Source: Magnetospirillum sp. ME-1
Lineage (GTDB): Bacteria; Pseudomonadota; Alphaproteobacteria; Rhodospirillales; Magnetospirillaceae
Assembly: GCF_002105535.1 (NCBI RefSeq)
Contig: NZ_CP015848.1
Location: 4,354,985-4,418,984, forward strand
Reading direction: 5' to 3'
DNA length: 64,000 bases
Both the position numbers and the translations under genes were made by a program. Positions 28,800 through 54,236 of the stretch are shown here, piece after piece; positions within the stretch are counted from its first letter, which is position 1, and each line of letters opens with the position of its first letter. The notes beneath the pieces are model-generated. The model saw only the letters and a list, made by a program, of their open reading frames with translations, was not told where the DNA came from and did no database searches.

Positions 28800-29939
28800 T
28801 CAGGCATTCACCGTAGATTTATTTATCTTGGATGCATGAATGGCTTTCGAATCCGGCTTTCCACCACGATAAGCCCGGAGCACCGCATCGGCGGCGAGGC
28901 GGCCATCGGCGATGGAGCGGTCCAGGTTCGACCAGCTCCAATCGTAATTGATGTGGTGGGCGACCGGGATCTCGATGACCCTGACCTTGGAGCCGATCTC
29001 CCGAAGGTGGTACTTGAACAGCTTGACGTCGTCCTCGCTGGTGGTGGCGGCGAACAGCATCACCAGATTGTTCAGGGCGTCGTAGAGGTTCTCGGGCCGG
29101 CGGATCTGCTTGCGGTCGAGGATGCGGCTGACCCACACCTCGTCCAGGTCGGGATGGTTGGTCAGCAGGTCCTCGAAATTGACGGTGTCGATGGTGGCAC
29201 CCTCGCAATAGACCTTGCCGTTCATGGTCACCGGCTCTTCGATATAGGGCAGGGCCGAGCAGGCGCAGAGGGTCTCGGCCGAGATGTGCTGGTACTTGGA
29301 ATCCTTGTTGCTGAACAGTTCCAGGCGCTGGTCGGTCAGGTTGTAGGAATTGTGGTAGAGCACCGGGCGCCCCTCCTGGTACAGCGCCTTGAAGTCGATC
29401 TGCTGCAAGAAGGCGCTGTCGGGATAGAACACCCGGGACAGGCCCTTGGTGGCGCTCTTGTACATCAGGCTGGTCATGAACCGCGACACCGGGTTGACCG
29501 CCAGCACCTGATTGAGGATCAGGGCGTTGAGATTGGCCTGGGACCACTTGCCGGGGTCCTTGGCGAAGGCGACGATCTCTTCCGACGCCTCCTTGATGGC
29601 CTCGGGGATCACCAGATTGCGGTAGCTGGAGGAATCCAGCACGAAGTTCAGCGCGTTCTCGGTCGCCGCCTCGAAATCAGGCGCGAAGGCCGCCGCCACC
29701 GGAAACTTCTCGTAGACATCGTCGGGGCGGAAGATGCCGCGGAAGAAGTCCACCGAGGTCTCCGCCTCCTTGCCCGGCGCCGCCTGATTCCAGACGATGC
29801 CCAGCCAGGCTCCGATGCACGACAGGCTCCACACGTCGAAGCGGATGTCCGGCTCGCGGTGGATGCGCTCCAGCGCGCCGATGGAAAGGCCGACCGCCGG
29901 GCCGCCACCCGCAAGACAGATTGCCCGCTTGATCGCCAT
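28800..29939 (-). CDS. Patatin-like protein with Cys in the nucleophile position
   Basis: A 379-residue protein from the ATG at 29939, with GGAGG 5 bases upstream; a frame opening 72 bases earlier lacks a good site. The patatin fold is recognisable: GGGPAVG at residues 11-17 as the oxyanion loop, then DVWSLSCIGAWLG, where the usual G-x-S-x-G aligns with L-S-C-I-G, placing Cys41 at the nucleophile. The second catalytic motif DG[GA] reads EGA (Glu246). It is a paralog of the patatin-like protein at 36374-37411. No signal peptide is seen. Activity as a lipase is doubtful; a thiol acyl-enzyme or a non-catalytic role is possible. Confidence 0.8.
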   Translation of the reverse strand: MAIKRAICLAGGGPAVGLSIGALERIHREPDIRFDVWSLSCIGAWLGIVWNQAAPGKEAETSVDFFRGIFRPDDVYEKFPVAAAFAPDFEAATENALNFVLDSSSYRNLVIPEAIKEASEEIVAFAKDPGKWSQANLNALILNQVLAVNPVSRFMTSLMYKSATKGLSRVFYPDSAFLQQIDFKALYQEGRPVLYHNSYNLTDQRLELFSNKDSKYQHISAETLCACSALPYIEEPVTMNGKVYCEGATIDTVNFEDLLTNHPDLDEVWVSRILDRKQIRRPENLYDALNNLVMLFAATTSEDDVKLFKYHLREIGSKVRVIEIPVAHHINYDWSWSNLDRSIADGRLAADAVLRAYRGGKPDSKAIHASKINKSTVNA

Positions 29940-30109
29940 GCCCGCCTCCATGTCATTGATCCGCCAGATTGGCACGGGAAGAACGGTATACTGCGTCGCA
30001 TCATCTCGCAATAGTTACAAGGTATGGCGTTAATTCGGTTCCTCGCATGCAGCTTTCGCCTTGGGACAATTTCGCCTATGCTGCCATTGCGTGAACAAGG
30101 AAGCTGGGC

Positions 30110-34149: not shown

Positions 34150-34392
34150 TCAGCCCTCGACCTCCACATCGGCCACCGGCGCGCCCACCGGCACCACGTC
34201 GCCCTCGGCCACCCACCAGCGCACCAGCCGGGCGGCGAAGGGGGCCTCCACCTCCTGGGCGACCTTTTCGGTCTCCAGCTCGTACAGGGGCTCGTCCAGG
34301 GCGAAATCCTCGCCCGGCTCCTTCAGCAGGCGGGTGATGTTCACTTTCTCAACATTGTAGCCGTAGGACGGAACGGCCAGCACCTTGATCAT
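34150..34392 (-). CDS. Stand-alone lipoyl (biotinyl/lipoyl-type) domain protein
   Basis: An 80-residue protein that is a single lipoyl domain, MIKVLAVPSYGYN..., with the modification lysine Lys43 in LYELETEKVAQEVEAP and the closing strand VVPVGAPVADV. It starts at an ATG overlapping the stop of the fused E1 gene (TGATG). In normal 2-oxoacid dehydrogenases this domain is part of E2; here no E2 catalytic domain or E3 gene is adjacent. It may be a free swinging-arm carrier for acyl groups made by E1, or may use an E2/E3 from elsewhere. Confidence 0.88.
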   Translation of the reverse strand: MIKVLAVPSYGYNVEKVNITRLLKEPGEDFALDEPLYELETEKVAQEVEAPFAARLVRWWVAEGDVVPVGAPVADVEVEG

Positions 34393-36359
34393 CACGGGGC
34401 TCCTGTCATGTCGCGGATTGTTTCCGCGACCTCTTGCGGCTGGGGCAGATAGGCATCGCCATAGGCCCCGCTGAAACCGATATGCACGTCCGGACGGCCC
34501 AGGATCAAGGGCGGAGCCTTCAGGCGGCTCCAGGTTCCGGCATGGGCGCACAGCTCGGCGACGATCATCTGGCCCACGCCGCCGCTCACGTTGTCCTCCT
34601 GCACCACCAGCAGCCGCCCGGTCCGGGCCACCGAGTCCATCACCGCCTCCCGGTCCCAGGGAACCAGGCTGCGCAGGTCGAACACCTCGGCCGACGCCGA
34701 TGCCGTCTCGGGCCGGCGCAAGGCGTCCTGGACCACCCGCACGGTATTGCCCCAGCAGATGACGGTGATGTCGTCGCCGGACCGCAGGCGCTGCGCGCTT
34801 CCGAAGGCGATGGCCGGAATCTCGGCCGGCACCGGCTCGGACGCCTGGAACAGCCGCTTGGGCAGCAGGATGATGGTGGGGTCCTCGGCATGGGCCGCCG
34901 CCCAGAACAGGCCCACCGCGTCGGCGGGCGTGCTGGGCACCGCCACCCGGATGCCGGGAATCTGGCAGAACGAGGCCTCGCAGGCCTGGCTGTGCCACAT
35001 GCCCGCCCCGGCCACATAGCCGCCATAGGGGGCATAGATCACCGCCGGGCAGTTCCAGGCCCCGGCCGAACGCCAGCGCAGCGTCGCCAGATCGTTGACG
35101 ATCTGACTCATGGCCGGGCCGCAGAAATCGGCGAACTGCATCTCGAGGAAGGGACGGATGCCGCCGGCGGCCAATCCCGGCGCCACCCCGGCGATGGTCG
35201 CCTCGGCCAGGGGCGAGTTGTGGACGCGGCCGGGAAAGCGGGTGGACAGCCCCCGGGTCAGGCCGAACACGCCCCCCTTGGGATCGTCCACGTCCTCGCC
35301 GAACAGCAGGGTCTGGGGCTGGTCCTCGAAGATGGCGCCCAGCGCCACCCCCACCGCACGGGCCAGGGTCCAGCGCTTCTCGGGGTAATCCTCGGGGAAT
35401 CGGAAGGGCGAAGGCAGGGCCGCGGGCGCCAGCCGGTCGTCCAAAGCCGCCCGGGGCGAGGGGTCGGGCTCGTCCAGCACCTCCTGGAAGGTGGCGTAGA
35501 CCTCGTCGGAGAGGCGCTGGCGCAGCGCCGCCACCTCGGCCTCCGGGGCGGCCCGTTGGGCGAAGGCGGCCACCGGATCACGGTCCCACTTGGCCCGGAT
35601 GGCATCTTCCGACAGGTAGCCGCGCTGGTCGTCGAAGCTGGAATGGCCCTCCAGCCGGTCCAGTTCGCACCACAGGATGGCCGGGCCATTGCCGCCGCGC
35701 ACCCCGTTCATCACCCGCCGGGCGACCGCGAACAGGGCTTCCGGGTCGCGTCCGTCGGCCCGGGTCACCGGCACTCCGTCCAGCAGGCCCAGCGCCAGGG
35801 GGTTGAGGCGGTCGGTGGGCGTGCTGATGCCCAGGCCGTTATCCTCGACCACGAACAGCACCGGAAGCTGGCGTTCGACGGCGAAGGCCACCGCCTCGAA
35901 GAACTCGCCCTGGCGGCACGACGCCTCGCCGGTCAGCGCCACCGCCACATGGGCCAGGCCCTGGCGCCGCATGGCCCAGGCGAAGCCGCAGGCGGGCAGC
36001 AGGTGGTGAGCGACGGGGGACAGCGCGCTCCACACCCCCCTCCCCCGGTCGCCGAAATGCCCCGGCATCTGCCGGCCGTTGGCCAGCGAGGCGGCCTTGC
36101 CCAGCAGCAGGCGCGCCAGCTCCTTCACCGGCGTGCCCAAGGCCAGCATCAGCGCCTTGTCGCGGTAATGGGGAAAGACCAGGTCGCCCGGCCCGATCAG
36201 CTGGGCCAGGGCGGCCAGGGCTTCGTGCCCCACCGACGACACGTGGAACGGCGCTCGTCCCTGGCGGACGAGGATGGCCTCGCGCCGGTCGCATTCGCGA
36301 CTGAGCATCATGGCCTCGAGCGCCAGAAGTGGCTCGAACCCCACCTCGGACCCATCCAT
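34392..36359 (-). CDS. Fused E1 alpha-beta 2-oxoacid dehydrogenase
   Basis: A 655-residue fusion. The alpha half (about residues 1-300) has HVSSVGHEA and the TPP/Mg motif reading GEASCRQGEFFEAVAFA...EDN, with Glu where GDG/GDA enzymes have Asp. The beta half (about 320-650) has FGEDVDDPKGGVFGLT, NSPLAEATIAG, and the C-terminal domain with LLVVQEDNVSGGVGQ. Fused E1 of this type oxidatively decarboxylates branched-chain or related 2-oxoacids onto a lipoyl arm. The ATG at 36359 has GGGGAG 8 bases upstream; longer readings run back into the upstream gene. A free lipoyl domain follows with overlap. Confidence 0.9.
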   Translation of the reverse strand: MDGSEVGFEPLLALEAMMLSRECDRREAILVRQGRAPFHVSSVGHEALAALAQLIGPGDLVFPHYRDKALMLALGTPVKELARLLLGKAASLANGRQMPGHFGDRGRGVWSALSPVAHHLLPACGFAWAMRRQGLAHVAVALTGEASCRQGEFFEAVAFAVERQLPVLFVVEDNGLGISTPTDRLNPLALGLLDGVPVTRADGRDPEALFAVARRVMNGVRGGNGPAILWCELDRLEGHSSFDDQRGYLSEDAIRAKWDRDPVAAFAQRAAPEAEVAALRQRLSDEVYATFQEVLDEPDPSPRAALDDRLAPAALPSPFRFPEDYPEKRWTLARAVGVALGAIFEDQPQTLLFGEDVDDPKGGVFGLTRGLSTRFPGRVHNSPLAEATIAGVAPGLAAGGIRPFLEMQFADFCGPAMSQIVNDLATLRWRSAGAWNCPAVIYAPYGGYVAGAGMWHSQACEASFCQIPGIRVAVPSTPADAVGLFWAAAHAEDPTIILLPKRLFQASEPVPAEIPAIAFGSAQRLRSGDDITVICWGNTVRVVQDALRRPETASASAEVFDLRSLVPWDREAVMDSVARTGRLLVVQEDNVSGGVGQMIVAELCAHAGTWSRLKAPPLILGRPDVHIGFSGAYGDAYLPQPQEVAETIRDMTGAP

Positions 36360-36373
36360 GCGGCGTTCTCCCC

Positions 36374-37411
36374 TTATGTGATGGTCCGGCCGAGATCGAC
36401 GCCGTACTCGGCGATGTGCTTGCGGGCGGTTTCGTAGCCCAGCTCGAACATGCGCTCCATGTTGCTGGTCGACCAGTCCAGCGCGGCCGGCAGCCAGTCG
36501 GGGGGAATGTCGAACTTGATCTTGACCAGTTCCACTTCCTTCTTGGGATGGGCGGCGTTCCATTCCTTCAGGTAGTAGTGCTCGAACAGCATCAGATCCT
36601 TCCGGCACACTTCCACCAGGGGCAGGATCATGGACTGGGAATAGGCCTGGAACAGGTTCTTGGGCCGCTGGATGTATTGCTGGTTGCCGAAGGCGTCCAG
36701 CACCACCAGGGTGCGGATGTCCTCGTCGGTACGCAGCAGGCCGCTGAAATTGTAGGTATCGACCGCGCCGCCTTCCATGAAGTAGATGCCGTCCACCGTG
36801 GTGGCCTCGTAGATGAAGGGATAGCCCAGCGAGGCGGCGAAGGTCTCGAAATTGATCTCGTTCTTGCCGTAGGTGACCACCTTCTGGTCGGCCACCGAAT
36901 AGGCGTTGATGTAGACCTCTTCCTCGTAATCCTTGATCTTGGAGAAGTTGATGAACTGCTCCAGCAGCGGCGCGTGCGAGCACATGCCGCTGGAGAAGAA
37001 GGTGGTGGTGCTGGGCGTGGTGATGGCCCAGATCAGCTGGATCAGGTCGCTGATCAGCTTCTTGCCCTTGGTCATGCCCAGCTGGTCCACGACCTTCTCG
37101 TAATAGGGCAGCTTGGTCAGCAGGTTGCGATAGCCCTCGGCCAGCCGGCTGCCCTTGACGAACACCTTGTAGTTCACCGGGATGAACTTGAAGATGGAAT
37201 CCAAGACGCTGAGATTGATGGAGTTGCGCAAGCTTTCCTGGCGCGTCATGCCGTTGGCCGGCGAAGCGTAAAGCAGCGCCATGCAGCCGCCGCCGCCCGC
37301 CCCGGAAATCACGTCGAACTTCACGCCGGCTTCCTCGAACGCCAGCATGGCCCCCGTCATCAATGTGCAGTTGGGCGCTCCGCCGCCCAACACCAACGCC
37401 ATTTTCGCCAT
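36374..37411 (-). CDS. Patatin-like protein lacking the catalytic serine
   Basis: A 345-residue patatin-fold protein from the ATG at 37411 with GGGAGGA upstream. The glycine loop GGGAPN is present, but the nucleophile elbow reads DVISGAGGGG: the serine of G-x-S-x-G is Gly39. The Asp motif reads EGG (Glu213). The region NFSGLL...QRPKNLFQAY matches the paralog at 28800-29939. Both catalytic positions are altered, so lipase activity is unlikely. Its place between a polyketide synthase and a 2-oxoacid dehydrogenase suggests binding or channelling of acyl intermediates; that is inference. Confidence 0.82.
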   Translation of the reverse strand: MAKMALVLGGGAPNCTLMTGAMLAFEEAGVKFDVISGAGGGGCMALLYASPANGMTRQESLRNSINLSVLDSIFKFIPVNYKVFVKGSRLAEGYRNLLTKLPYYEKVVDQLGMTKGKKLISDLIQLIWAITTPSTTTFFSSGMCSHAPLLEQFINFSKIKDYEEEVYINAYSVADQKVVTYGKNEINFETFAASLGYPFIYEATTVDGIYFMEGGAVDTYNFSGLLRTDEDIRTLVVLDAFGNQQYIQRPKNLFQAYSQSMILPLVEVCRKDLMLFEHYYLKEWNAAHPKKEVELVKIKFDIPPDWLPAALDWSTSNMERMFELGYETARKHIAEYGVDLGRTIT

Positions 37412-37440
37412 CGGTTCCTCCCTGAGTTCACGACTTCCGG

Positions 37441-40400
37441 TCAAGATGCCGGCCGGGACAATTCCCGCGAAATAATTCTCTGAATGAACGACTCATCCTC
37501 AATAATGGAATAGTGAGTACCTTCACGCATGAGAATCTGCAACTGCTTGTTTGTAAATCGCCCCCAGCCCAGGATATCCTCGCGCGAGACGAAGATGTCG
37601 CCGATGGCCACGAAGCAGGTGATGGGCACGTCCAGCGGCCGCCTGCGCCGGTACTCATAGGTGCTGGCCATCTCGAAATCGGCGCGGACCGCCGGCAGCA
37701 TCAGGCGGCGCAGGTCGGGGTCCACCAGCAGATGCTCGCTGGCGGCGATGTCGAAGTGGCGCACGATCTCGGCGAAGATGGGGCCCGGCTGGCGATAGGG
37801 CGGCAGATCGGCGCGATAGCCCGGCATGCGGGCCAGACGCCGCATCAGGCTGGTCTCGAACGAGCCGATGGATTTCAGCCGGTCCGGCGGCCGCGCGCCG
37901 GAACAGAACAGATGCGACGGCTTGATCCCGGCCCGGTCCATCAGCCGGCAGGTGGTCTCGTACAGCGTCAGGCTGCCCAGGCAATGGCCGAAGAAGGCGA
38001 AGGGCAGGTCCAGCTTGCCCGCCATCTCCTCCATCAGCCGGTCCACCCAGCGCCCCAGATCGTGTTCCGGTTCCTCGCCGATGCGGGTGAGCCGTCCGGG
38101 CGGCTCGACGGCGATCACCTCGATTGCCGGATCCATGGCCGCCCCCCAGCCCCGGAAGGTGGCCGAGCCGCCGCCGGCGAAGGGGAAGCAGAACAGGCGG
38201 CTCTGCGGCCTTGGCGGCGAAACGATGTTCACCAGCCAGGACCCGGCGGCAACCGTCTCCGCCGCTGCCTCCGGGGCGGGCGCGCCGGCGGTGTCGGGCC
38301 ACAGATCATCGATCAACTGGTCGATGCTGGGGCCGCGGATCAGGTTGAAGGCGGGAATGCGCAGCCCGATGGCCGCTTCCACCCGGTTGATCAGGGTCAC
38401 CGCCATCAGCGAGTCCAGCCCCACCTCGCGCAGCGGCCGGCTGGCCTCGATGGGCTCGGCGAGCCCCAGGGTGGAGGTCACCAGGCGGCGCAGGAACGCC
38501 GTCAATGCACCTCGCCTGCGCCCGGGATCGTCCGAGGCCAGGCAGGCGCGCAATTCCACGATGTCGGCCGCCGGGCCGGGACCGACGCTCGCCTGGAAAT
38601 GGGCGTAAAGGGCGGGCGGCCGGGCGAACTGGGCCAGGAAGGACGGCCAGTGGATGGGCGCCACCGCCGCCTGGACCAGCCCGCCGTCGAACAGCAGGTC
38701 GAAGGCCTGTCCGCCGCGGTCGGAATCGATGAAGCGCATGCCGCGCGCCTGCCACGCCGCCTGGACCCGCTCGTCCAATCCGCTGGCCATGCCGGATTCG
38801 GCCCATGGCCCCCAATTGACCACCAGGGCCGGAAGCCCCAGGCGATGGCGATGGACGGCCAGGGCGTCGAGACAGGCATTGGCGGCGGTGTAATTGGCTT
38901 GGCCCGCCGAGCCCAGCTGGCTCAGCACCGAGGAGAACAGCACGAAATCGCGAAGGCCGACGTCGCGGCTGAGCTCGTGCAGCCACCACGCGCCGTCCAG
39001 CTTGGGCGCCAGGACGCGGCGGAATTTGGCCCAGTCCAGGGACTCGGCCATGGAATCGTCCACCAGTCCCGCACCGTGATAGATGCCGTTGAGCGGCTGG
39101 CCCAGTTCGGCCACCCGGCGCATCAGGCGCCGCACGTCGGCCTCGACGCCCATGTCGGCCTTGACCACCAGCACCTTGGGGCCGATGGCCTCGATGGCGC
39201 GGATTATGGCGTCGCAATCGGGCGTCTTGCGGCCCTGGCGCCCCACCAGCACCAGCGTCTCGGCCTTGCGGCGCCGCGCCAGCCATTCCGCCACCTTGCG
39301 GCCGATGGCACCCAGGCCGCCGGTGACGACGTAGACGCCCCCTTCGGGCGGCGGGGCGCGTCCGGGGGCCGGCTCGGCCTCGGCCAGCCGCGCCACCATG
39401 CGCGCGGCCCGGCGGAAGGCGAACTGGGTCTCGCCGTCGGGCCGCCGCAGCCGGGCGGCCACCAGCCGGGCCTCGGCCGAACGATCGCCCGCCGCCTCCA
39501 GGTCGATCAGCCCGCCCCACAGGGCCGGCATCTCCACGGCGAGGGAGCGGCCGAAGCCCCACAGCCCCGCCTGCAGCACATCCGCCGCCGGATCACCATC
39601 GGTCACGGCCGCCGCGTTGCGGGTGACCAGCCACAGCCTCGCCCCGCCGGCAAAGCGCTCGCGCTCGGCGGCCAAACCTTGCGCCACCATCAGGGCGCTT
39701 CCCAGTACCCGGGCCTGGGCCGCCTGGTCGGTGGGGTCGGCCCCGGCGTCATCCAGCCCGCCGAGATGGAGCAGTCCGACCATGCTGCCTTTCGCGTCCA
39801 CGGCGACCGAGCGCAGCACGGCCGCCAGGGCCTCGGAGGAATGGGGCATCTCCACCTGCCGGACGGCGGCGCCCTCGGCGTCCAGGGCGGCGGCCAGGGC
39901 CGGGCGGGTGCGATCCCCGTCGCCGCCCAGCAGCAGGAAGACGGAAGGTCCGCTTTCGCTCGCCGCCGAGACTCCGGCGTTTTCCCAGCGCAACTGGTAA
40001 AGCCAGCGTTCATCCTGCTTTTTTTCCGCCGGGCGGAACTGGGCGGGGGGAAGCGGTTTGACCGCCACGCCGTCGAAGCCCATGACCAGCTTGCCGTCCA
40101 GGTCGCGGGCCTCGATGTCGACGATGGTCAGCCCGGCATGGCCGTTGGGAGGGCGCCGCTTCACATGGCACCACAGCTCGCGCGCCGGCGCGGCGGCCAT
40201 GCGGAAGCGCTCGATGGACACCGGCAGGGGCATGGCCGCATCGGCGGGCGGCGGGCGACTGAAATCGCCCAGCGCGTCGATCACCGCCGGATAGAGATGG
40301 AGGCAGGCGTCGAGCAAGGCGGGCGGCGGCCCGTCCACCCCCTCGGACAGGGCCACGCCATCGGGCAGGCGCACGCGGGCCAGAGCCTCGCCCTCGCCGC

Positions 40401-43400
40401 GCCACAGGCTTTCGATGCCCTTGAATGCCGCCCCATGGCCCAGGCCCAGGCTCTTCATGCCGGCGTAATAGGCCGAGGCCTTGAGCGAGGTGGCGCAGCG
40501 CCGCTGAATGCGCTTGGCGTCGAAGCCGTTGCGCCGGGACTGGTCGGGCGCGGCGCGGCGGACGATGCCCTCCATATGGGTGCGCCACGCACCGCTCCCC
40601 TGGTCCTGGCTGGCCAGGGAAAAGCGGGCCTGCTCTGCGTCCTCGGGCTCCAGCAGCAGGCAGGTGGCGCGCTCCTCGTCGTCGGCCAGCACCAGGGCTT
40701 CGCGCTGGGCGAAATCCACCACCTCGAAATCCTCGTCGCCCAGGCTTTGCCGCGCCGCCCCCAAGGCGGCGGCCAGACCGGCGGCGGCGGGGAGCACGAT
40801 GGCATCGTGAACCCGGTGATCGGCCAGCCAGGCAAGCCGGGCACTGCCATAGACCGCGTCGAATTGCTGCGCCGGGAGCGGCGACGGCCGGTGCCGGCCC
40901 ACCAGCCCCGCACCGGCGGAGCGGGTCGGGCGGGGCTCCGCCGCCTCCTGCCAGTACCGCTCGTGCTGAAAGGGATAGGTGGGCAAGGACAGCCGGCGCG
41001 GCTGGAACGGGGCGTTGAACCGCGCCCAGTTCACCGCCACGCCGCGACGGTAGAGCCCCGCCACGCAGCCCAGCAGAGCGCGGCCCTCGTCGTCGCCCTT
41101 GCCCAAGGTGGGCAGCCAGGATTCGTCGCCGTCGGGCACGCCATCGCGGGCCAGGGCGAGCAGGCCGCCGCCCGGCCCGATTTCCACGTATTCGGTGATG
41201 CCCATGGCGGCCAGGGTACCGGCGGCATCGGCGAAGCGCACCGCCTCGCGGGCCTGCCGGCACCAGTATTCGCCGCCGGGCGGTCCGCTCATGGCCAGCC
41301 CGGTCAGGGTCGAGACCCAGGACACGCTCCCCGGCCGCGCCCCGGTTCCTTCGGCGGCGCGGGCCAGCCCGTCCAGGGCCGGGACCATCAGGGCGGAATG
41401 AAAGGCGTGCGACACCGTCAGCCGCCGGGCGGCGACACCGTCCCGGTCGAGAGCGGCCAGGATGCGCTCGACATCCTCGGCCGGTCCCGAGATCACCGTG
41501 TTCCGGAGCCCGTTGACCGCCGCCACGTCGACGCCCACGCCGTCCAGGGCGGCACGTACCGTGGCTTCGTCGGCGAACACCGCCGCCATGGCCCCGCCCT
41601 CGGGCAGCGCCCCCATCAGGCGGCCGCGCTCGGCCACCAGACGCGCCGCCTGATCCAGCGACAGCGCCCCGGCCAGATGGGCGGCGGCGAACTCACCGAT
41701 GGAATGTCCGGCCACCGCCATGGGCCGGATGCCCCAGGCGCCCAGGCAATCGGCCAGGGCCACCTGCACGGCGAACAGCGCCGGCTGGGTGTTCTCGGTG
41801 CGGTGGATGGCGTCCCCGTCCGCGAACAGGATGTCGAGGACCGAGCGCCCGAGATGGTTGCCAAGCGCCGCCGCCACCCGGTCGAGGGATTCGCGGAAGG
41901 CGGGCTCCGCCTCGTAGAGCGCGCGACCCATGCCGGAGAACTGCGAGCCCTGGCCGCTGTAGAGGAAAGCGATCCGCCGGGGCCCCTCGCGCACCCGCTC
42001 GGCCGAATCGGAATTGCAAGCATGCAGCTTGGCCCGCAAATCGGCCACCGAGTCCACGGTCAGCGCCAGACGGTGGGCGTGATGCGCCCGGCCCGCCGCC
42101 AGGGTGTGGCACAGATCCCCCAGATCGGGCGGCACATCGCCGTCCAGCACCGATCGGTGACGGGCGATCAGGGCGTCCAGCGCCGGGGCATTCCGGGCCG
42201 ACAGCAGGAACAGATGGAGCAGCCGCAGGCGGCGGTCGGGCCGCTCGCTGGCGGCGGGGGCCTCCTCCACGGCGATGGCGGCGTTGGTGCCGCCCATGCC
42301 CAGCGCGTTGACCAGGGCCCGGCGGGGCCGGTCCCCGGCCCGCCAGGGCAGCACCGCCGTATTGACGAAGAACGGCGTGGTTTCTAGCTTCAGCAGGGGA
42401 TTGGGCGTCTTGAAATTGACGTTGGGCGGCACCACGCCGTCTTTCAGCATCAGCGCCGTCTTGACCAGCGACACCAGCCCCGAGGCGTTTTCCGCATGCC
42501 CCACATTGGGCTTGGCCGAACCGATGGGGCAGCTCCCCTTTTCCGCGCCGGGGAAGGCGCGCTTCAGGGCCGACACCTCCTTGGGATCGCCCACCGAGGT
42601 GCCGGTGCCGTGGCATTCCACATAGCCGATGGAAGACGGCGCGAAGCCCGCCTGCGCCAGGGCCCTGGACATCACCTCGCTCTGGGCCTCGACGCTGGTC
42701 ACGGTATAGCTGGTCTTGCGGGCGGCGTCGTTGTTGACGCCCGAGCCCCGGATGACGGCGTAGACATGGTCGCCGTCTTCGATGGCCCGGCCCAAATCCT
42801 TCATCAGCACCGCGACCACGCCGGAGCTGAACGCCGTCCCGCCGGCCTCGGCATCGAAGGTGCGGATATGGCCGTCGGGCGAAAAGATCGAGCCCTTGAC
42901 CGCCAGATAGCCGGCGCGGTTGGGCACCCGGATGGTGGCCGCCGCCGCCAGGGCCATGGCGCAGTCGCCATCGCGGATGGCCTTGGCCGCCAGATCGACC
43001 ATCACCAGCGAGGTGGAGCAGGCGGCCTGCACGTTGAGGCTGGGCCCGCTGAGGTCGAGCTTGAAGGAAATGCGGGTGGACGCGTAATCCTTGTCGTTGC
43101 CGAAATGCAGCATGCTGGCCGTCCCGCCGTAACGGGCGTCGGGATAATCGGCCAGGACGTTCATCATGTAGTTGGTCACCACCGTGCCGGTGGTGGCGTA
43201 GACCGCCACGGGGCCATGCCCCCGGCCGGGCGGATAACCGGCATCCTCGAAGGCTTCCCAGGACACCTCCAGCAGATGGCGCTGCTGCGGGTCAAGCAGG
43301 CGGGCCTCGACGGGCGCATAGCCGAAGAATCCGGCGTCGAAGCCGTCATGGCCGTCCAGGACGTAGCCGGCCTTGACGTATTGGGGATCGCGGATCTGTT

Positions 43401-43554
43401 CGGGCGGCACACCCTCGGCCAGCAGCTCGGCATCGGAAAAGCGGGTCAGCGATTCCTTGCCGTCACGGAGATTGTCCCAGAATTGCCGCCAGTCGGACGC
43501 GCCCGGCAGCCGGCACGCAATCCCGATGATGGCGATCCCCCCCGGTTGCGCCAC
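37441..43554 (-). CDS. Type I polyketide synthase KS-AT-DH-KR-ACP-TE
   Basis: A 2037-residue single-module synthase, started at GTG 43554 because GGGGAGGGG lies 7-9 bases upstream; a TTG two codons earlier is too close to it. KS: Cys179 in AACSTSL, His315 in ECHGTGT, His353 in VGHAENASG. AT: Ser618 in GHSIGE and HAFH near 716, indicating malonyl-CoA. DH near 890-1100: His913, but Gly of the HxxxGxxxxP motif is Asp. A psi-KR and KR follow, with TGGLGAIG and Ser/Tyr in SSVLSQLGSAGQANY. ACP: LDSL near Ser1715. TE: nucleophile elbow GHCLGS with Cys1858 for Ser, and a late His in GTHYS. There is no ER or MT. Confidence 0.93.
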   Translation of the reverse strand: MAQPGGIAIIGIACRLPGASDWRQFWDNLRDGKESLTRFSDAELLAEGVPPEQIRDPQYVKAGYVLDGHDGFDAGFFGYAPVEARLLDPQQRHLLEVSWEAFEDAGYPPGRGHGPVAVYATTGTVVTNYMMNVLADYPDARYGGTASMLHFGNDKDYASTRISFKLDLSGPSLNVQAACSTSLVMVDLAAKAIRDGDCAMALAAAATIRVPNRAGYLAVKGSIFSPDGHIRTFDAEAGGTAFSSGVVAVLMKDLGRAIEDGDHVYAVIRGSGVNNDAARKTSYTVTSVEAQSEVMSRALAQAGFAPSSIGYVECHGTGTSVGDPKEVSALKRAFPGAEKGSCPIGSAKPNVGHAENASGLVSLVKTALMLKDGVVPPNVNFKTPNPLLKLETTPFFVNTAVLPWRAGDRPRRALVNALGMGGTNAAIAVEEAPAASERPDRRLRLLHLFLLSARNAPALDALIARHRSVLDGDVPPDLGDLCHTLAAGRAHHAHRLALTVDSVADLRAKLHACNSDSAERVREGPRRIAFLYSGQGSQFSGMGRALYEAEPAFRESLDRVAAALGNHLGRSVLDILFADGDAIHRTENTQPALFAVQVALADCLGAWGIRPMAVAGHSIGEFAAAHLAGALSLDQAARLVAERGRLMGALPEGGAMAAVFADEATVRAALDGVGVDVAAVNGLRNTVISGPAEDVERILAALDRDGVAARRLTVSHAFHSALMVPALDGLARAAEGTGARPGSVSWVSTLTGLAMSGPPGGEYWCRQAREAVRFADAAGTLAAMGITEYVEIGPGGGLLALARDGVPDGDESWLPTLGKGDDEGRALLGCVAGLYRRGVAVNWARFNAPFQPRRLSLPTYPFQHERYWQEAAEPRPTRSAGAGLVGRHRPSPLPAQQFDAVYGSARLAWLADHRVHDAIVLPAAAGLAAALGAARQSLGDEDFEVVDFAQREALVLADDEERATCLLLEPEDAEQARFSLASQDQGSGAWRTHMEGIVRRAAPDQSRRNGFDAKRIQRRCATSLKASAYYAGMKSLGLGHGAAFKGIESLWRGEGEALARVRLPDGVALSEGVDGPPPALLDACLHLYPAVIDALGDFSRPPPADAAMPLPVSIERFRMAAAPARELWCHVKRRPPNGHAGLTIVDIEARDLDGKLVMGFDGVAVKPLPPAQFRPAEKKQDERWLYQLRWENAGVSAASESGPSVFLLLGGDGDRTRPALAAALDAEGAAVRQVEMPHSSEALAAVLRSVAVDAKGSMVGLLHLGGLDDAGADPTDQAAQARVLGSALMVAQGLAAERERFAGGARLWLVTRNAAAVTDGDPAADVLQAGLWGFGRSLAVEMPALWGGLIDLEAAGDRSAEARLVAARLRRPDGETQFAFRRAARMVARLAEAEPAPGRAPPPEGGVYVVTGGLGAIGRKVAEWLARRRKAETLVLVGRQGRKTPDCDAIIRAIEAIGPKVLVVKADMGVEADVRRLMRRVAELGQPLNGIYHGAGLVDDSMAESLDWAKFRRVLAPKLDGAWWLHELSRDVGLRDFVLFSSVLSQLGSAGQANYTAANACLDALAVHRHRLGLPALVVNWGPWAESGMASGLDERVQAAWQARGMRFIDSDRGGQAFDLLFDGGLVQAAVAPIHWPSFLAQFARPPALYAHFQASVGPGPAADIVELRACLASDDPGRRRGALTAFLRRLVTSTLGLAEPIEASRPLREVGLDSLMAVTLINRVEAAIGLRIPAFNLIRGPSIDQLIDDLWPDTAGAPAPEAAAETVAAGSWLVNIVSPPRPQSRLFCFPFAGGGSATFRGWGAAMDPAIEVIAVEPPGRLTRIGEEPEHDLGRWVDRLMEEMAGKLDLPFAFFGHCLGSLTLYETTCRLMDRAGIKPSHLFCSGARPPDRLKSIGSFETSLMRRLARMPGYRADLPPYRQPGPIFAEIVRHFDIAASEHLLVDPDLRRLMLPAVRADFEMASTYEYRRRRPLDVPITCFVAIGDIFVSREDILGWGRFTNKQLQILMREGTHYSIIEDESFIQRIISRELSRPAS

Positions 43555-43590
43555 GGCCAAACCCCTCCCCTTTTGCGTTTTGTCCGGGCG

Positions 43591-43956
43591 TTACCAGTCG
43601 TCCCCGTCATCGGCATCGTCGCCGTGGGACTCGCCCTCGCTGAAATCCATCAGACGTTCCAGGGTGCGCTCCATGAAATCCTGCATGGAGGCCAGGTAAT
43701 CGATCCAGATCTCGATCATCAGCATGACGATCTTAAGCTGGAAGCCCACCATCCGGCCGCCGGGATTGCCGCCGCCCATGGCCATCAGCAAGGGCAGCAT
43801 CTGCATGAACGACCCCATCTGGAACGGCATTTCACGACCGGCGCCACCACCGCCCCGCCGTTCGCGCCGCCCTCCGCGATCTCCACTTTTGCGTGCTTTC
43901 CTCTCCTCATTATCGCGCCCAAGGCATGTGTCTTCAGGCCTGTCGTTATCTCGCAT
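43591..43956 (-). CDS. Small charged-hydrophobic protein upstream of the PKS
   Basis: A 121-residue protein from the ATG at 43956; a GTG three codons earlier is possible. The N-terminal third is Arg/Asp/Gly-rich and probably disordered (GGRRERRGGGGAGRE). The centre is Met- and Leu-rich and helical (MGSFMQMLPLLMAMGGG, LKIVMLMIEIWIDYLASMQ), like a short phasin or membrane-associating helix. The tail is acidic (DDADDGDDW). It is 36 bases before the PKS start on the same strand, so it is part of the operon. I do not recognise a family. Confidence 0.72.
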   Translation of the reverse strand: MRDNDRPEDTCLGRDNEERKARKSGDRGGRRERRGGGGAGREMPFQMGSFMQMLPLLMAMGGGNPGGRMVGFQLKIVMLMIEIWIDYLASMQDFMERTLERLMDFSEGESHGDDADDGDDW

Positions 43957-44215
43957 ATTCCCCACCCGTCATCTTAGCCTCGATTAAGGAGCCAATGGCA
44001 CCGATTACGCCTTATTACGAGCCGAGGCAAACAATTTTCCATGCCCCCCTGCCGCCAAGGGATGAATCCCCCGTCCCCCACAGACACGACGACCATGCCT
44101 TCTGTTTCCGGCATGATACAGATTATGGAAATACGCGGTTGAAAGCGTAGTTCGGCTCAGTAAGATTGCAGGCGGTCGTTTTCCTGACTGTCGGAGCGAC
44201 TGAACCACGAGCAAG
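43957..44215. promoter_or_regulatory. Divergent promoter region of the PKS operon and the giant signalling gene
   Basis: About 260 bases between divergent genes. It should hold both promoters. No clear sigma-70 or sigma-54 pattern or operator palindrome was found by eye. Confidence 0.4.
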
Positions 44216-47200
44216 GTGCCTTTTAGGTTGAGCACAACAAATGCTAAACCACTATTGGCCACTATGGAGCGGGCGGAAGCGCTTAGCCGCGACCGCGACC
44301 GCGTGCTTTGGCGCGCCCACAGCGAATCCTTGGGCTCGGCCCTGGTTATGGTTCCCGCCGAGGACGAGCCTTCGCCGCGCGTGCTGTCACGCTTTCGCCA
44401 CGAACACGCCCTGAAGGACCGGCTCGAGGCCGATTGGGCGGTGCGGCCGACCATCCTGGTCGAGCGCGGCGGCACTGTGGAAATGCTTCTCGAAGACCCG
44501 GGCGGGATGCCGCTGGACGGCATCCTGGGCGATGCCGCCCAGGCGGGTAGAGGAATGGACATCCCGGACTTCCTGGTCCTGGCGCCCCGAATCGCCGAGT
44601 CCCTCTCCCGGTTGCACAGCAGGAACATCGTTCACAAGGACTTGAGGCCGGCGAATATCCTCGTCTCCCCGGACGGACAGCCGGTCCGTTTCACCGGATT
44701 CGGCATCGCCTCGCTGCTGCCGCGCCATCACATCGCGCTGGACCCCATCGAAACCATCGAGGGCAATCTGGTGTACATGGCGCCGGAACAGACCGGGCGC
44801 ATGAACCGGTCGGTGGATTGCCGCAGCGACCTGTACTCGCTCGGCATCGTGTTCTTCGAGATGCTGGCCGGCAGGCCCCCCTTCGCCTCGGAGGACCCCG
44901 TCGAACTGGTGCATTTCCACGTGGCGCGCCGTCCGCCGCTGCTGTCGGGCATCCGTGACGACATTCCGGGTCCGGTCTCGGAAATCATCATGAAGCTGCT
45001 GGCCAAGCCGGCGGAGGAACGCTACCAGACGGCCAGCGGACTGGCCGCCGATCTCCTGCACTGCCTGGACTCGTGGCGGGGCAACAAGGCGGTGGCGCCG
45101 TTCCGCCTGGCCGCCAACGACACGCCGGATCGCCTGATCATCCCTGAAAAGCTCTATGGCCGCGCCGCCGAATTGCACCGGCTGCAAAAGGCCGCCGAGC
45201 GGGTGACGGCGCAGGGCAGCCTGAACATCGTCCTGGTCACCGGCTATTCGGGCATCGGCAAGTCGGCCCTGGTGGGGGAACTGCACAAGGCCCTGATCCA
45301 GCCGCGGGCGCTGTTCGCCTCCGGCAAGTTCGACCAGTACCGGCGCCACATCCCCTATGCCACCTGGGCCCAGGCGTTCCAGGGCACCATCCGCCAGGTT
45401 CTCGGCCAGGGCGACGCCCAGTTGGAAGAGTGGCGCCAGGCCATTCAGGACGCGCTGGGGCAGAACGGCCGCCTGATCACCGACCTGATTCCGGAACTGG
45501 CCCTGCTGATCGGCGAGCAGCCCCCGGTTTCGGATCTGCCCCCCAACGAGGCGCAGGTCCGCTTCTTCGCCACCTTCCGCCGGTTCCTCAGCACCTGGGC
45601 GACGGCCGAGCATCCGCTCGTCCTGTTCCTCGACGATCTCCAATGGATCGACCCCGGCAGCCTGAAGCTGTTCGAATACCTGGCGACCCACAGCGAACTG
45701 CGCCATCTTCTGCTGATCTGCTCGTACCGCGACAACGAGGTCGGGCCGGCCCACCCGCTGGCCCTGGCGTTGGACTCCATCCGGTCGCGCGTCAGCCTGG
45801 ACGAAATCCTGCTGCAGCCACTGTCCACCGACCACCTGAACCAGATGGTGGCCGAAACGCTGTTCTGCCCGCGGACCAAGGCCCAGCCGCTGGCCGAGAT
45901 CATCGGCGCCAAGACGGCGGGCAATCCCTTCTTCACCATCCAGTTCATGCAGGGGCTGTTCGAGGACGGCCTGCTCGCCCCCGGCCCGGACGGGTGGCAA
46001 TGGGACATGGAGAGGATCGCCGGCAAGACCTTCACCGACAATGTGGTCGATCTGATGGTCGGCAAGCTGCGCCGCCTGCCCGAAGGGGCCCAGAGCGTGA
46101 TGCGGACCCTGGCCTGCCTGGGCAACACGGTATCGGTCAACACCCTTCACATTCTGTTCGGCGATTCGGCCGCGCCCCTCGACGACGCCCTGGACGAGGC
46201 CTTGCGCGCCTCGTATCTGGTGCGGCGCAAGGACAGTATCCGCTTCACCCACGACCGCATCCAGGAAGCCGCCTATTTCCTGCTCCCCCCCGAATCCCGG
46301 CCGGCCGAGCACCTGCGCATCGGCCGCATGCTGCTTTCCGGGCTCGACGACGGCGCGCTCGACGACCAGATCTTCGACGTGGTGAACCATTTCAACATCG
46401 GCGCGGAGCTGGTCGCCGATCCCGAGGAACGGCAGCGGATCCGCCTGATGAACGTCCGGGCCGGCGAGAAGGCGAAGGCCTCGGCCGCCTACGCCACCGC
46501 CCGCACCTTCTTCGTCGAGGCCATGGAGATGTTGCCGCCCTCGGCCTGGGAGGAGGATTACCAGGGCACCTTCCGGCTGCACCTGGAACGGACCACCTGC
46601 GAGCTGCTGCTCGGCAATTTCCAGCAGGTGGATCAGCTTTTCCCGCTGATCCTCGACAAGGCGCGGAGCAACGCGGACCGCGCCCGCGCCTATCGCCTGC
46701 TCATCCTGCGCAACCAGGTGGCCGGCCAGTACGGCGAAGCGGTGGAGGTCGCCCTGACCGCGCTGCGCCTGTTCGGGCTGACCTGCCCCACCACCCCGGC
46801 CGACATCGAAGCGGCGGTGGAACGCGCACGCCAGGATTCCACGGTCAACCTCAAGGGCCGCGAGATCAGCGAGCTGATCGACGCCCCGGTGATGACCGAT
46901 CCCGATGCGCTGGGCATGCTGGGCATCCTGGCCGACGCCATGCCCTGCGCCTGGATCGCCAGACCGGATCTTTACGCCTGGCTGGCCCTGAACGCGCTCA
47001 ACGTCACCCTGCTTCTGGGCAATGACGGCGATTCCTGCGCCGTCTACATGGGCTATGCCATCGTCCTGGTCAGCAAGTACGACGCCATCGACGAATCCAT
47101 CCAATACGCCAATGTGGCGCTGAAGCTGCAGGAAGCACTGTCGCGCCCCGACTTGCGGGGACGCATCCTGGTCCGGGCCGGCGTGTTCATCAACAGCCGC

Positions 47201-50200
47201 CGCAATCCCATGCGGTCCAGCATCGACATCCTGCGGGAAGGGTTCGTGGACTGCCAGGCGGCCGGCGACTACTCCTACGCCGTGTACGGCGCCCTGGAAA
47301 TCTCGTGGCTGACCTTCGAATGCGGCGCGCCGCTCGACGACATCTCCGCCGCGGCCATGACCTATTCGGCCTTCGCGCAGCAAAGCCGCAACAACGGGCT
47401 GCTTCACACCCTGCGCGCCCAGGAGGCTTTCGTCTCCTGCCTGACGGGTGAAGCCGAACTGCCCACCTTCATGGAACGCGGCGAAACGTCCCTGGCGGCG
47501 CTGACCGCCGCCAAATTCGGAACCGGCATCGCCTATTACCACCTGATGGTCCAGACGGCCGCCCTGCTCCATGGCGATTACCAGCTGGCCCTCGAGCAAA
47601 GCCGCCATATCCTGCCCTATCTGAAGAGCATCACCGGATGGGTCGCCGAAACCAGCTACCACCTGCTGGCGGTCCTGACCCTGACGGCGCTCGACGCGCC
47701 CTCCGACCCGGCCGAGGCGGCGGAGCGGCGGGCCGAGCTGGCGGCGCATGTGGATCTGCTGGCAAGGCGGACGGCCAATTGCCCCGAGAATTACGGCTGC
47801 CGCCACGATCTGGCCCTGGCCGAGATCGCCCGCACCGAGGGCGACCTGCTGGAGGCCGAACGTCTCTACGAGAACGCCATCAGCCAGGCCCACGACAACG
47901 CCACCCTCCATATCGAGGCCATCGCCTACGAGCTGGCGTCAAGATTCTATCGCGGGCGCGACCGGCAGCTGATCGCCGACACCTATCTGCGCAAGGCCCG
48001 CGACGCCTATGCCCGATGGGGCGCCATGGGCAAGGTGCGGCAGCTGGAAGCCGCCTATCCCCAGCTGGCGGACAAGCCCGCCCGGTCCGGCGCCGGAAAC
48101 GCGCCGCACGGCCAGTTCCAGAGCCTGGACGCCATCAGCGTCGTCAAGGCGTCGCAAGCGGTGTCCGGGGAAATCGCCCTCAACCGGCTGGTCGAGACGC
48201 TGCTGCGCATCGCGGTGGAAAACGCCGGGGCGGGACGCGGCGTGCTGGTGGTCGATCTCGGCGGCACCTCCACCGTGGTGGCCGATGCCCGCATCGACGA
48301 CGGTGCCGTGGTGGTGGTTTCGCTGCGCAGCGAGCCGACGCCCAAGGTCCTTCCCATGAAGGTCCTGAACTACGTCCAGCGGGCGTGGAAGGGCGTGCTG
48401 CTGGACGACGCCCCCCTGGACAGCGATTTCGGGACCGACGAGTACATCCAACGCAACAACGTCCGCTCGGTCATGTGCCTGCCCATGGTCAAGCAGTCCA
48501 AGCTGATCGGCCTGCTTTACCTGGAAAACAGTCAGGTATCCCACGTTTTCACCGCGGCCCGCGTCGCGGTTCTCGAATTGCTGGCCTCCCAGGCGGCCAT
48601 CTCGCTGGAAAACTCCCTGCTGTACGAGGATCTCGAACGGCACAGGGACGACCTGGAACGCACCGTCGCGCTCCGCACCGCCGAACTGTCCGAGAAGAAG
48701 GAACAGCTGGACAAGATCCTGGCCGAGCAGGACATCATCCTCGAGAACGCCTCGCTGGGCATCGTCGTCGTCCAGCCCGCCCCCGACGGGCGGCGGCTGA
48801 TCCGGCGCGCCAACCGGGCCATCGAACGCCTGTTCGGCTTCAGCCCCGACGAATTGCTGGGAATGGACACCCGCGATGTCTGGGGCAGTGACGAGGAATT
48901 CAGGAGTGTGGGCAACGCCTACCAGATGCTCGCCGCCGGCGAAACCTACAGTGGCGAGCACGTCATCACGCGCCGGAACGGCCAGAAGGGCTTCTGCAAG
49001 CTGGTCGGCACCGCCATCGAGCCGGCCGACCTCGCCAAGGGCACCGTCTGGCTGATCGAGGACATCACCGATCGCCACGCCGCCGAAGTCGCCCTCAAGG
49101 CCGCCAAGCAGATGGCCGAGGAGATGGCCGAGGCCTTCCGCTACAAGAGCGATCAGGTCTCGGCGCTGTTGGACAATTCGGGGCAGGGCTTCCTGTCGTT
49201 CCAGGGCGATCTGCTGGTCAAGCCGGAATTCAGCCACCCCTGCCTGGCCTTCTTCGGCGGCTCGCCGGCCGGCAAGCCCATCGACGAACTGCTGTTCTCG
49301 GGCGACGACCACGCGCGGGACACGCTCAGGGCCTGCATCGAGGAAGCCCTGGCCGAAAAGGACACCGCCCGCGCCGAGCTTTACCTGTCCCTGCTGCCCG
49401 AAGAGATCACCATCGGCAGCCGCATCCTGAAAGCCGAGTTCAAGCCGCTGGACCAGGCGATCATGGTGGTGCTCACCGACATCACCAGCGAAAAGGCGCT
49501 GGCCGCCCAGGTGGCGCGCGAACGCACCCACCTGGAGATGATCGTGTCGGCCGTCACCTACGGCAACGACTTCTTCGACGCCGTCGCCGAGTTCACCAGC
49601 TTCGTCCAGGACGGGCCCGGCATGTGGCGGGGCCGCGACCGGACGGTCCTGTACCGGATGATCCATACCTTCAAGGGGACCTTCAACCAGTTGGGCTTCC
49701 ACCATCTCCCCGCCGCGCTGCATGAGGTGGAATCCTCGCTGCAGCGGCTGGGGTCGTGGGCGGACGGGGCCGCCGCCGCCGCCATGGTGTTCTCCCGCGA
49801 TTGGCAGGCCATCCTGGCCTCGGACCTGGAGACGGTCCGCAGCGCCCTGGGCGACGATTTCATGGCGCGGCGCGGCGTGGTCACCGTCACCCCCGAACAG
49901 GCCAAGCGCTTCGAGCGCTTCGCGCGCGGCCTGCTCGACGAGGCCGAGGTGCCCGACGTGCTGGAGGAAATCGCCGCCATCCGCACAGTCTCGCTGCGCC
50001 AGGCCATCGCCGATTTCGACAAGATGATCCATCAGATCTCGGCGCGGTTGGAAAAGGAAGTGGCGCCGCTGGTGGTGGAAGGCGACGACGTCCGCATCGA
50101 TCCCGAGGTGTTCGGCCCCTTCCTGCGCTCGCTCGGCCACGTGTTCCGCAATGCGGTCGACCATGGTATCGAGGACCCCGATTCCCGCCTGTCCACCGGC

Positions 50201-53160: not shown

Positions 53161-53202
53161 ACCAAATCTCGATGAGTTCCACTCACCGCGATTTGGTATA
53201 AT
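53161..53202 (+). promoter_or_regulatory. Palindrome and -10-like TATAAT before hupU
   Basis: An imperfect 16-bp inverted repeat (ACCAAATC... 53161-53176 with ...GATTTGGT 53182-53197, two mismatches, 5-base spacer) touches a perfect TATAAT at 53197-53202. The hupU ATG is only 8 bases beyond. No -35 is clear, and no ribosome site fits in the space. It could be an operator-promoter for a leaderless message. Confidence 0.4.
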
Positions 53203-53210
53203 GTGGCGAC

Positions 53211-54236
53211 ATGATCGCGCCGTCCCCTCCTCCCGACACTTTCAACGTCTTGTGGCTGCAGGCCGCCAGCTGCGGCGGCTGCACCATGTCGGCCCTGGCG
53301 GCCGACGATTCGGGCTTGCTGCGCGCGCTCGAACGGTTCGGCATCCGCCTGCTGTGGCACCCTTCGCTCTCCGAGGAATGCGGCGCCGAGGCGCTGGCCA
53401 CCCTCGAGGATTGCGCCACCGGCCGGGTCCGGCTGGACTGCCTGTGCGTCGAGGGCTCGGTGCTGCTGGGTCCCGGCGGCTCGGGCCGCTTCCAGATGCT
53501 GTCGGGCAGCGGCAAGCCCATGAAGGACTGGATCGCCCGCCTGGCCGCCAAGGCCAATCATGTGGTGGCGGTGGGCAGCTGCGCGGCGTTCGGCGGCGTA
53601 CCGGCCGCCGGCCACAATCCCACCGACGCCCGCGGCCTGCACTATTCCGGCTGGGATTTGGGCGGCGCGCTGGGCAAGGGCTTCCGCTCGGCCTCAAACC
53701 TGCCGGTGGTCAACATCGCCGGCTGCGCCCCCCATCCGGGATGGATCGTCGAAACCCTGGCGGCCCTGGCGTTGGGCGAGGTGACGCCCGCGCATCTGGA
53801 CGCCCTGGGACGGCCGCGCGCCTATGCCGACCATCTGGCCCATCACGGCTGTGGCCGCAACGAGTTCTACGAGTTCAAGGCCAGCGCGGCGCGCCCCTCG
53901 GATCGCGGCTGCCTGATGGAGAATCTGGGTTGCCGCGCCACCCAGGCGCCCGGCGACTGCAACATCCGCCGCTGGAACGGCTATGGCTCGTGCACCGATG
54001 GCGGTTACGCCTGCATCAACTGCACCTCACCCGCCTTCGAGACGCCTTCGGGTCCGTTTCAGGAAACCGCCAAGGTGGCCGGCATCCCGGTCGGCCTGCC
54101 GGTGGACATGCCCAAGGCGTGGTTCGTGGCCCTGGCGGCGCTGTCGAAATCGGCGACGCCCCAGCGGGTTCGCACCAACGCCCACGCCGACCACGTCATC
54201 GTTCCCCCCGCCCGCCGGCCTTCGAAGACGCCATGA
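53211..54236 (+). CDS. hupU: NiFe hydrogenase small subunit, H2-sensor type (HupU)
   Basis: A 341-residue small subunit without the Tat (RRxFxK) signal peptide or C-terminal membrane helix of respiratory uptake hydrogenases. Proximal cluster ligands are seen in CGGC (21-24), GSCAAFGG and GCAPHPGW; the medial and distal cluster region has HHGCGRNEF, GCLMENLGC and CINCTSP. This is the domain layout of HupU/HoxB regulatory subunits. It is followed by the large subunit with an ATGA overlap. No Hyp maturation genes or HupT kinase are in the window. Confidence 0.9.
   Translation: MIAPSPPPDTFNVLWLQAASCGGCTMSALAADDSGLLRALERFGIRLLWHPSLSEECGAEALATLEDCATGRVRLDCLCVEGSVLLGPGGSGRFQMLSGSGKPMKDWIARLAAKANHVVAVGSCAAFGGVPAAGHNPTDARGLHYSGWDLGGALGKGFRSASNLPVVNIAGCAPHPGWIVETLAALALGEVTPAHLDALGRPRAYADHLAHHGCGRNEFYEFKASAARPSDRGCLMENLGCRATQAPGDCNIRRWNGYGSCTDGGYACINCTSPAFETPSGPFQETAKVAGIPVGLPVDMPKAWFVALAALSKSATPQRVRTNAHADHVIVPPARRPSKTP

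Follow-up and report, generated by a model that had tools for sequence, protein, structure and literature searches.

A polyketide synthase operon of Magnetospirillum with a serine-less patatin and, in one branch, an E1-lipoyl pair that probably supplies the starter unit

The present study analyzes a five-gene operon in a 64,000-nucleotide window of the genome of Magnetospirillum sp. ME-1 (NZ_CP015848.1, positions 4,354,985 to 4,418,984), the host assembly being a single contig of 4,551,873 bp. All five genes lie on the minus strand and encode, in order of transcription, a small protein, a type I polyketide synthase (PKS), a patatin-fold protein, a fused 2-oxoacid dehydrogenase E1 and a free-standing lipoyl domain (Table 1). 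Reading frames and Pfam confirmed the genes, their orientation and the tight spacing reported in a preliminary description of this DNA: the gaps are 30 bp between the small gene and the PKS, 29 bp between the PKS and the patatin and 14 bp between the patatin and E1, and a single base is common to the E1 stop and the lipoyl start. The five genes are two units, a three-gene core and an added E1-lipoyl pair, and the pair, confined to one branch of these magnetic bacteria, probably hands the PKS its first building block directly from a keto acid.

Across the Magnetospirillum group and other Rhodospirillales, 13 distinct loci carried the core of small protein, PKS and patatin; further loci came to light when named genomes were scanned by pattern and 150 genomes of the order were searched. 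Orthologues of the patatin with at least 58% identity were present in 8 of the 17 genomes of the genus, its own included, and none was found in the 38 other genomes of the family that were searched, where the weaker matches, once aligned, were a second patatin. Beyond the genus the loci were in Roseospira visakhapatnamensis, a Rhodospirillum metagenome-assembled genome (MAG; its contig is the same as that of G1143), a Rhodospira MAG, genome G1137 and an Acetobacteraceae MAG. The PKS stood directly before the patatin at 12 of the 13, the Acetobacteraceae MAG having a cyclase/AAA/TPR protein of 1136 amino acids (aa) between them, and the small gene was immediately upstream of the PKS at all 11 loci with enough contig, the other two being cut off. 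The E1 and lipoyl genes were found at 3 of the 13 loci, in the window genome (G000), in G043 and in G034 (Paramagnetospirillum caucaseum SO-1), and full-length E1 orthologues (at least 1429 bits, the next best match there reaching 177 bits) in 3 of the 17 genomes of the genus. On these counts joint conservation of the five genes in relatives fails, and a conserved five-gene pathway was rejected. The three E1-bearing PKSs formed one clade (support 100/100), and therefore a single gain of the pair suffices. At 8 of the 10 loci lacking the pair a CheX gene followed the patatin, in the place taken in the window by E1 and the lipoyl gene, and all eight scored above the Pfam cut-off; at one of them, L114, CheX was fused in frame to a response regulator.

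Pfam recognized ketosynthase (KS), acyltransferase (AT), dehydratase (DH), ketoreductase (KR), acyl carrier protein (ACP) and thioesterase (TE) domains in the PKS and no enoylreductase, in agreement with its earlier assignment as a single-module reducing enzyme. In an alignment of 12 rows (L041 lacking ACP and TE, L051 lacking the KS Cys, and L114 standing outside the alignment) the active-site residues of KS, AT, DH, KR and ACP, which also bear out that assignment, were conserved wherever a row covered them. The TE nucleophile was Cys, not Ser (GHCLG), in all 11 covering rows and likewise in L114. The PKS frame of L041 (genome G040) contained one in-frame stop, either genuine or a sequencing error. 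One hybrid PKS/nonribosomal peptide synthetase (NRPS) frame is listed for each of strains AMB-1 and SO-1 in an excerpt of PMC4306944, and these may be the PKS of this operon. The small protein matched nothing in Pfam or NCBIfam; its AlphaFold model, with helices at 47-52, 54-60 and 67-106, predicts a helical protein at low confidence (predicted local distance difference test, pLDDT, 56) and was dropped as evidence because it was too weak.

The patatin-fold protein (54.7 bits in Pfam) has the fold and the oxyanion loop (GGGAPN) of patatin-like phospholipases and lacks their Ser-Asp catalytic dyad. With positions fixed by alignment to PlpD, the Ser of the nucleophile elbow was Gly39 and the Asp of the DG motif was Glu213 in all 12 aligned sequences, window included, and also in a thirteenth (L114); the preliminary description had seen the loss of the serine, and the aspartate is gone as well. 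The structural model was of moderate confidence (mean pLDDT 69) and its fold search returned CapV, PlpD and patatin. The ratio of nonsynonymous to synonymous change (dN/dS) was calculated for four genes among the three E1-bearing genomes, three pairs per gene, and came to 0-0.07 for lipoyl, 0.24-0.30 for E1, 0.12-0.23 for the patatin and 0.23-0.32 for the PKS, so that all four are under purifying selection. Decay of the patatin was rejected on its ratio and on the identical replacements in 12 of 12 sequences. We tentatively propose that this pseudo-patatin might serve as a non-hydrolytic acyl-binding partner of the PKS. For the second patatin-fold protein of the window, 22 loci were tried and 20 sequences recovered, the window copy among them; all 20 carry Cys where the nucleophile would be and EGA in place of DGG. 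This protein occurs more widely in the family than the PKS-linked patatin.

The fused E1 contained the Pfam domains E1_dh, Transket_pyr and Transketolase_C, and a motif alignment showed conserved Glu and His at the positions we take to be catalytic, together with a variant thiamine diphosphate motif, GEA...DN. Its top matches among plasmids were five Streptomyces records at 46-49% identity. Of 72,556 plasmid records 14 matched the lipoyl protein, the Streptomyces ones among these 14 being the same five, and in each of the five the E1 and lipoyl matches were adjacent on one strand. In all three Streptomyces clusters examined, E1 lay directly before a protein, annotated as NRPS, that opens with lipoyl, 2-oxoacid_dh, ACP and KS domains. 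The window E1 was 47-49% identical to these Streptomyces E1s versus 26% to the E1 of the host pyruvate dehydrogenase (PDH), and host PDH was on this ground rejected as its source. The S. xanthii cluster also carried genes for HMG-CoA synthase, FabD, pabB, chorismate mutase, ornithine cyclodeaminase and an LLM oxidoreductase, and from gene content we take it and the other two clusters to be streptogramin-like (pristinamycin/virginiamycin). The strongest foreign match to E1 in 398 genomes sampled from the phylum was to a protein of 1112 aa that joins E1, lipoyl and ketosynthase III (KASIII) domains, and 250 genomes of that order yielded six more such fusions, all in one other genus. All seven, when scanned, had E1_dh, Transket, lipoyl and ACP_syn_III domains, and none of the seven had a 2-oxoacid_dh (E2) domain.

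Phylogenetic analysis of E1 used 51 rows, 47 of them different, which were the best matches of the earlier searches and not a random sample. The three PKS-operon E1s, three Streptomyces E1s and seven fusions made up one clade of 13 rows (support 100/99); the remaining 38 rows, among them the host PDH E1, lay outside it. Within this clade the fusions were a sister branch, their E1 portions being 34-38% identical to the window E1. The grouping persisted when either Streptomyces or most fusions were left out (100/98 to 100/99); it is narrowly sampled, with the Streptomyces kin drawn from plasmid records, and the tree program warned of long branches. In a domain scan the ten foreign rows of the clade were all next to or fused with lipoyl and ketosynthase domains. 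Three ketosynthase queries gave no match at 1e-5 in 40 stretches surrounding E1s that lie outside the clade; most of these stretches extend only about 1.5 kb to either side, so that distant partners would be missed.

The lipoyl protein matched Biotin_lipoyl and no other Pfam family (38.2 bits), was 100% identical in G043 and 95% in G034, and retained the lipoylation lysine in all three genomes (ETEKV, ETEKV, ETDKV). By BLAST it was 45-49% identical over 73 aa (67.8-72.4 bits) to the lipoyl domains of the Streptomyces megasynthases and 30% to that of the host PDH E2, and a host origin of the domain appears less likely. The E2 core family PF00198 was absent from all five operon genes. The host genome had two E2 genes by the same family, one belonging to the PDH operon and the other SucB-like by resemblance, neither of them with the window E1, and no branched-chain E2 was among them. 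The preliminary description had considered that the pair might work with an E2 of amino acid breakdown encoded elsewhere; as far as was looked, only the two E2s just named are present.

The explanation we favor, by a modest margin of confidence, is that the pair supplies the PKS with a starter from a 2-oxo acid and does so without a dedicated E2 or coenzyme A (CoA). A single PKS module, probably iterative, would make a partly reduced acyl product, a lipid-like polyketide, that the Cys thioesterase would release. The E1-lipoyl pair would have been added behind the patatin gene in one Magnetospirillum branch. E1 would decarboxylate a 2-oxo acid and acylate the arm of the lipoylated free protein; a branched-chain substrate and starter would be the most likely, which we suggest with caution. 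The acyl-lipoyl protein would then prime the PKS, at the KS cysteine or through ACP or AT, and a shared E3 would reoxidise the lipoyl arm. This reading is preferred because the pair follows the patatin closely and overlaps within itself in the same orientation, because the sampled E1 clade is entirely ketosynthase-linked, because the lipoyl Lys and the E1 Glu and His are conserved, because neither of the two host E2 genes accompanies this E1, and because the E1-bearing PKSs form one clade. The idea that E1 and a lipoyl carrier feed the PKS while bypassing E2 and CoA was already in the preliminary description, and of it the kinship with ketosynthase-linked E1s now stands on the 13-row clade, with the biochemical steps argued from sequence. 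A fuller version, in which a relay acting in trans and free of E2 primes an iterative type I PKS, the dead patatin and the small helical protein act as non-enzymatic partners, and an undescribed acyl lipid of Rhodospirillales had its starter changed once by gain of the relay in one Magnetospirillum branch, is a good deal more doubtful and is offered tentatively.

Several observations weigh against starter supply by the pair. Ten of the 13 PKS-patatin loci lack E1 and the lipoyl gene, and E1-lipoyl is therefore dispensable for the basic reaction. The thiamine diphosphate motif of E1 has GEA instead of GDG, and in the Streptomyces relatives an E2 domain still separates lipoyl from ACP. Over 67 aa the lipoyl protein was also 42% identical (50.8 bits, BLAST) to the lipoyl domain of the host SucB-like E2, which makes its origin less clear than that of E1 and leaves room for a host origin and for use of a host E2. 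At three other alphaproteobacterial loci (L081, L082 and L083) E1-alpha, E1-beta and a free lipoyl protein occurred together; no E2 was noticed by eye there in 6-20 kb, no ketosynthase query matched, and their E1s were placed elsewhere in the tree than the 13-row clade. By eye, the surroundings of these three loci contained Rieske-oxygenase-like genes. A new acyl donor might be expected to act at the KS, and we looked there for retuning, counting those positions that 8 other PKS rows (L051 and L114 excluded) conserve and at which the E1-bearing clade has a fixed replacement. The KS had no excess of such changes (20/219, p 0.89), and retuning of the KS for a new donor was not found, which counts against a new donor acting there. 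Changes were densest in the TE (28/158; Fisher p 0.0004 versus the rest, the positions not being independent) and next in KR (14/117), with DH at 10/105, linkers at 1/19 and 3/61, AT at 4/113 and ACP at 0/38. This pattern agrees more readily with an altered product than with an altered entrance to the KS.

An alternative explanation could be that the pair relies on the E2 core of the host's PDH or 2-oxoglutarate complex to make an acyl-CoA, which would prime the PKS or fatty acid synthesis. The two host E2 genes, PDH-like and SucB-like, make this conceivable, as do the resemblance of the lipoyl protein to the SucB-like lipoyl domain, the E2-like domain still present in the Streptomyces relatives and the fact that the matches of the window E1 in Pfam, NCBIfam and PDB were ordinary E1s. 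We nevertheless regard it as unlikely, given that the 80-aa lipoyl protein has no second domain for docking on a core and that the fusions of the sister branch all do without an E2 domain. Less probable again is that the pair is a catabolic or redox module oxidising 2-oxo acids, a chance neighbour of the PKS operon unrelated to its product. Its presence at just 3 of 13 PKS loci, the occurrence of E1 with a free lipoyl protein elsewhere without a ketosynthase, and the CheX genes, which indicate that the slot accepts unrelated genes, would all suit such a module, but it would not account for an E1 clade that is, as sampled, wholly ketosynthase-linked, for the 14-bp spacing and one-base overlap, or for the position of the closest relatives found in polyketide clusters.

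Quite improbable, finally, is that a ketose phosphate is the donor and that E1, in the manner of NapB/NapD, draws a two-carbon hydroxyacyl unit from it to give a glycolyl starter; the window E1 is a fused alpha-beta protein and its nearest relatives found are in the clusters that we presume to be streptogramin-like. Two-component systems of the NapB/NapD type are described for naphthyridinomycin and dnacin in a portion of PMC7570522, but the proteins there, by that description, are split otherwise (DinS 754 aa, DinU 306 aa), and in an excerpt of PMC5384830 the priming mentioned for pristinamycin IIa is a branched-chain one.

If starter supply by an E2-free relay in trans holds, the pair would be a compact part for changing starter units. 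The PKS operon is common to eight related genomes, of which three have the pair and five lack it (one of the five with the in-frame PKS stop), and natural comparison among them would show what happens to an existing PKS when a starter supply is added. Non-enzymatic partners seem to be required in this PKS family, to judge from the conserved serine-less patatin and the small protein, and the E1-lipoyl-KASIII fusions are a hint, within one protein, of acyl passage from lipoyl arm to ketosynthase without CoA.

Other genes of the window were noted around the operon. A GNAT of PF13444 (111.9 bits), with a match to FeeM (N-acyl amino acid synthase) of 33.6 bits at a cut-off of 27, was near the operon at 7 of the 8 loci of the genus and could be OlsB-like or a user of the PKS acyl product. 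Divergent from the operon is a protein with kinase, AAA, GAF, PAS and histidine-kinase-type ATPase regions, and farther on is a frame whose best nickel-dependent hydrogenase stretch is C-terminal (495-825).

Table 1. Features of the window, with positions counted from its first nucleotide, and related loci from other genomes
Feature	Position	Strand	Length, remarks and basis
Small protein	43591-43965	-	124 aa from GTG; 121 aa if ATG at 43956; basic/Gly-rich N-terminus, predicted long helix, acidic tail ending in W
Type I PKS, one module KS-AT-DH-KR-ACP-TE	37441-43560	-	2039 aa; Pfam
Patatin-fold protein, Gly at nucleophile position, Glu for dyad Asp	36374-37411	-	345 aa; Pfam, PlpD alignment, fold search
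Fused alpha-beta 2-oxoacid dehydrogenase E1 (thiamine diphosphate enzyme)	34392-36359	-	655 aa; Pfam, tree, motif alignment
Free-standing lipoyl domain, Lys43 in ETEKV	34150-34392	-	80 aa; Pfam
Second patatin-fold protein	28800-30011	-	
GNAT of PF13444	31632-32411	-	
Kinase/AAA/GAF/PAS/histidine-kinase-type ATPase protein	44216-50554	+	2112 aa
Frame with nickel-dependent hydrogenase stretch	53201-55678	+	825 aa
CheX in the slot of E1 and lipoyl			L038, L039, L040, L041, L042, L048, L049, L114
Streptomyces plasmid clusters examined			NZ_CP108424.1, NZ_CP109590.1, NZ_CP061282.1
E1-lipoyl-ketosynthase III fusions			~1110 aa; L086, L097-L102; G765 and six genomes of genus g501; two genera, one proteobacterial order

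The preliminary description knew of no described pathway with such a gene set, and this does not hold for the principle, since carrier-protein priming from E1 and acyl-lipoyl is in print in the parts of PMC5384830, PMC8762209 and PMC7570522 that bear on it. Direct priming of carrier proteins is proposed in a passage of PMC5384830 for N-acyl amides and pristinamycin IIa (citing Craig and Brady 2011 and Brachmann 2012) and for naphthyridinomycin (citing Peng 2012); acyl-lipoate is named among the donors in an excerpt of PMC8762209, and NapB/NapD-like proteins are described in one of PMC7570522. No publication on this operon or gene set was found in the open-licence literature by titles and abstract starts. 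Starter supply as proposed here rearranges the parts of priming systems already reported for antibiotic and fatty acid pathways, and what is unusual is the putative E2-free relay in trans beside a type I PKS, together with the conserved serine-less patatin. By their descriptions in the same excerpts (PMC8762209, PMC5384830, PMC7570522), the metagenome-derived enzyme of Craig and Brady 2011, which turns branched-chain keto acids into branched-chain acyl-ACPs, the NapB/NapD systems and pepteridine are alike in passing an acyl group from an E1-like protein to a carrier protein, not to CoA, and are set apart by their other synthases and products. The Streptomyces clusters resemble the window in the fused alpha-beta E1, the lipoyl domain and the position of E1 directly before a PKS/NRPS protein, but they are large, the megasynthase itself carries their lipoyl domain, E2-like domain and ACP, and neither a patatin nor the small protein was among the annotated genes seen in them. 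The E1-lipoyl-KASIII fusions share a sister E1, a lipoyl domain joined to a ketosynthase and the absence of E2, and differ in being one polypeptide, in having KASIII and not a type I PKS, and in their more distant E1. PlpD, CapV and patatin have the fold and oxyanion loop in common with the window protein, unlike which they keep Ser and Asp at the catalytic positions. Against the canonical 2-oxoacid dehydrogenase complex, the window has the E1 motif and the Glu and His positions and lacks a co-encoded E2 core, whereas with ketosynthase-coupled E1-lipoyl priming systems it shares both the grouping of E1 and a co-encoded lipoyl domain with its lysine, the acyl transfer being what we propose.

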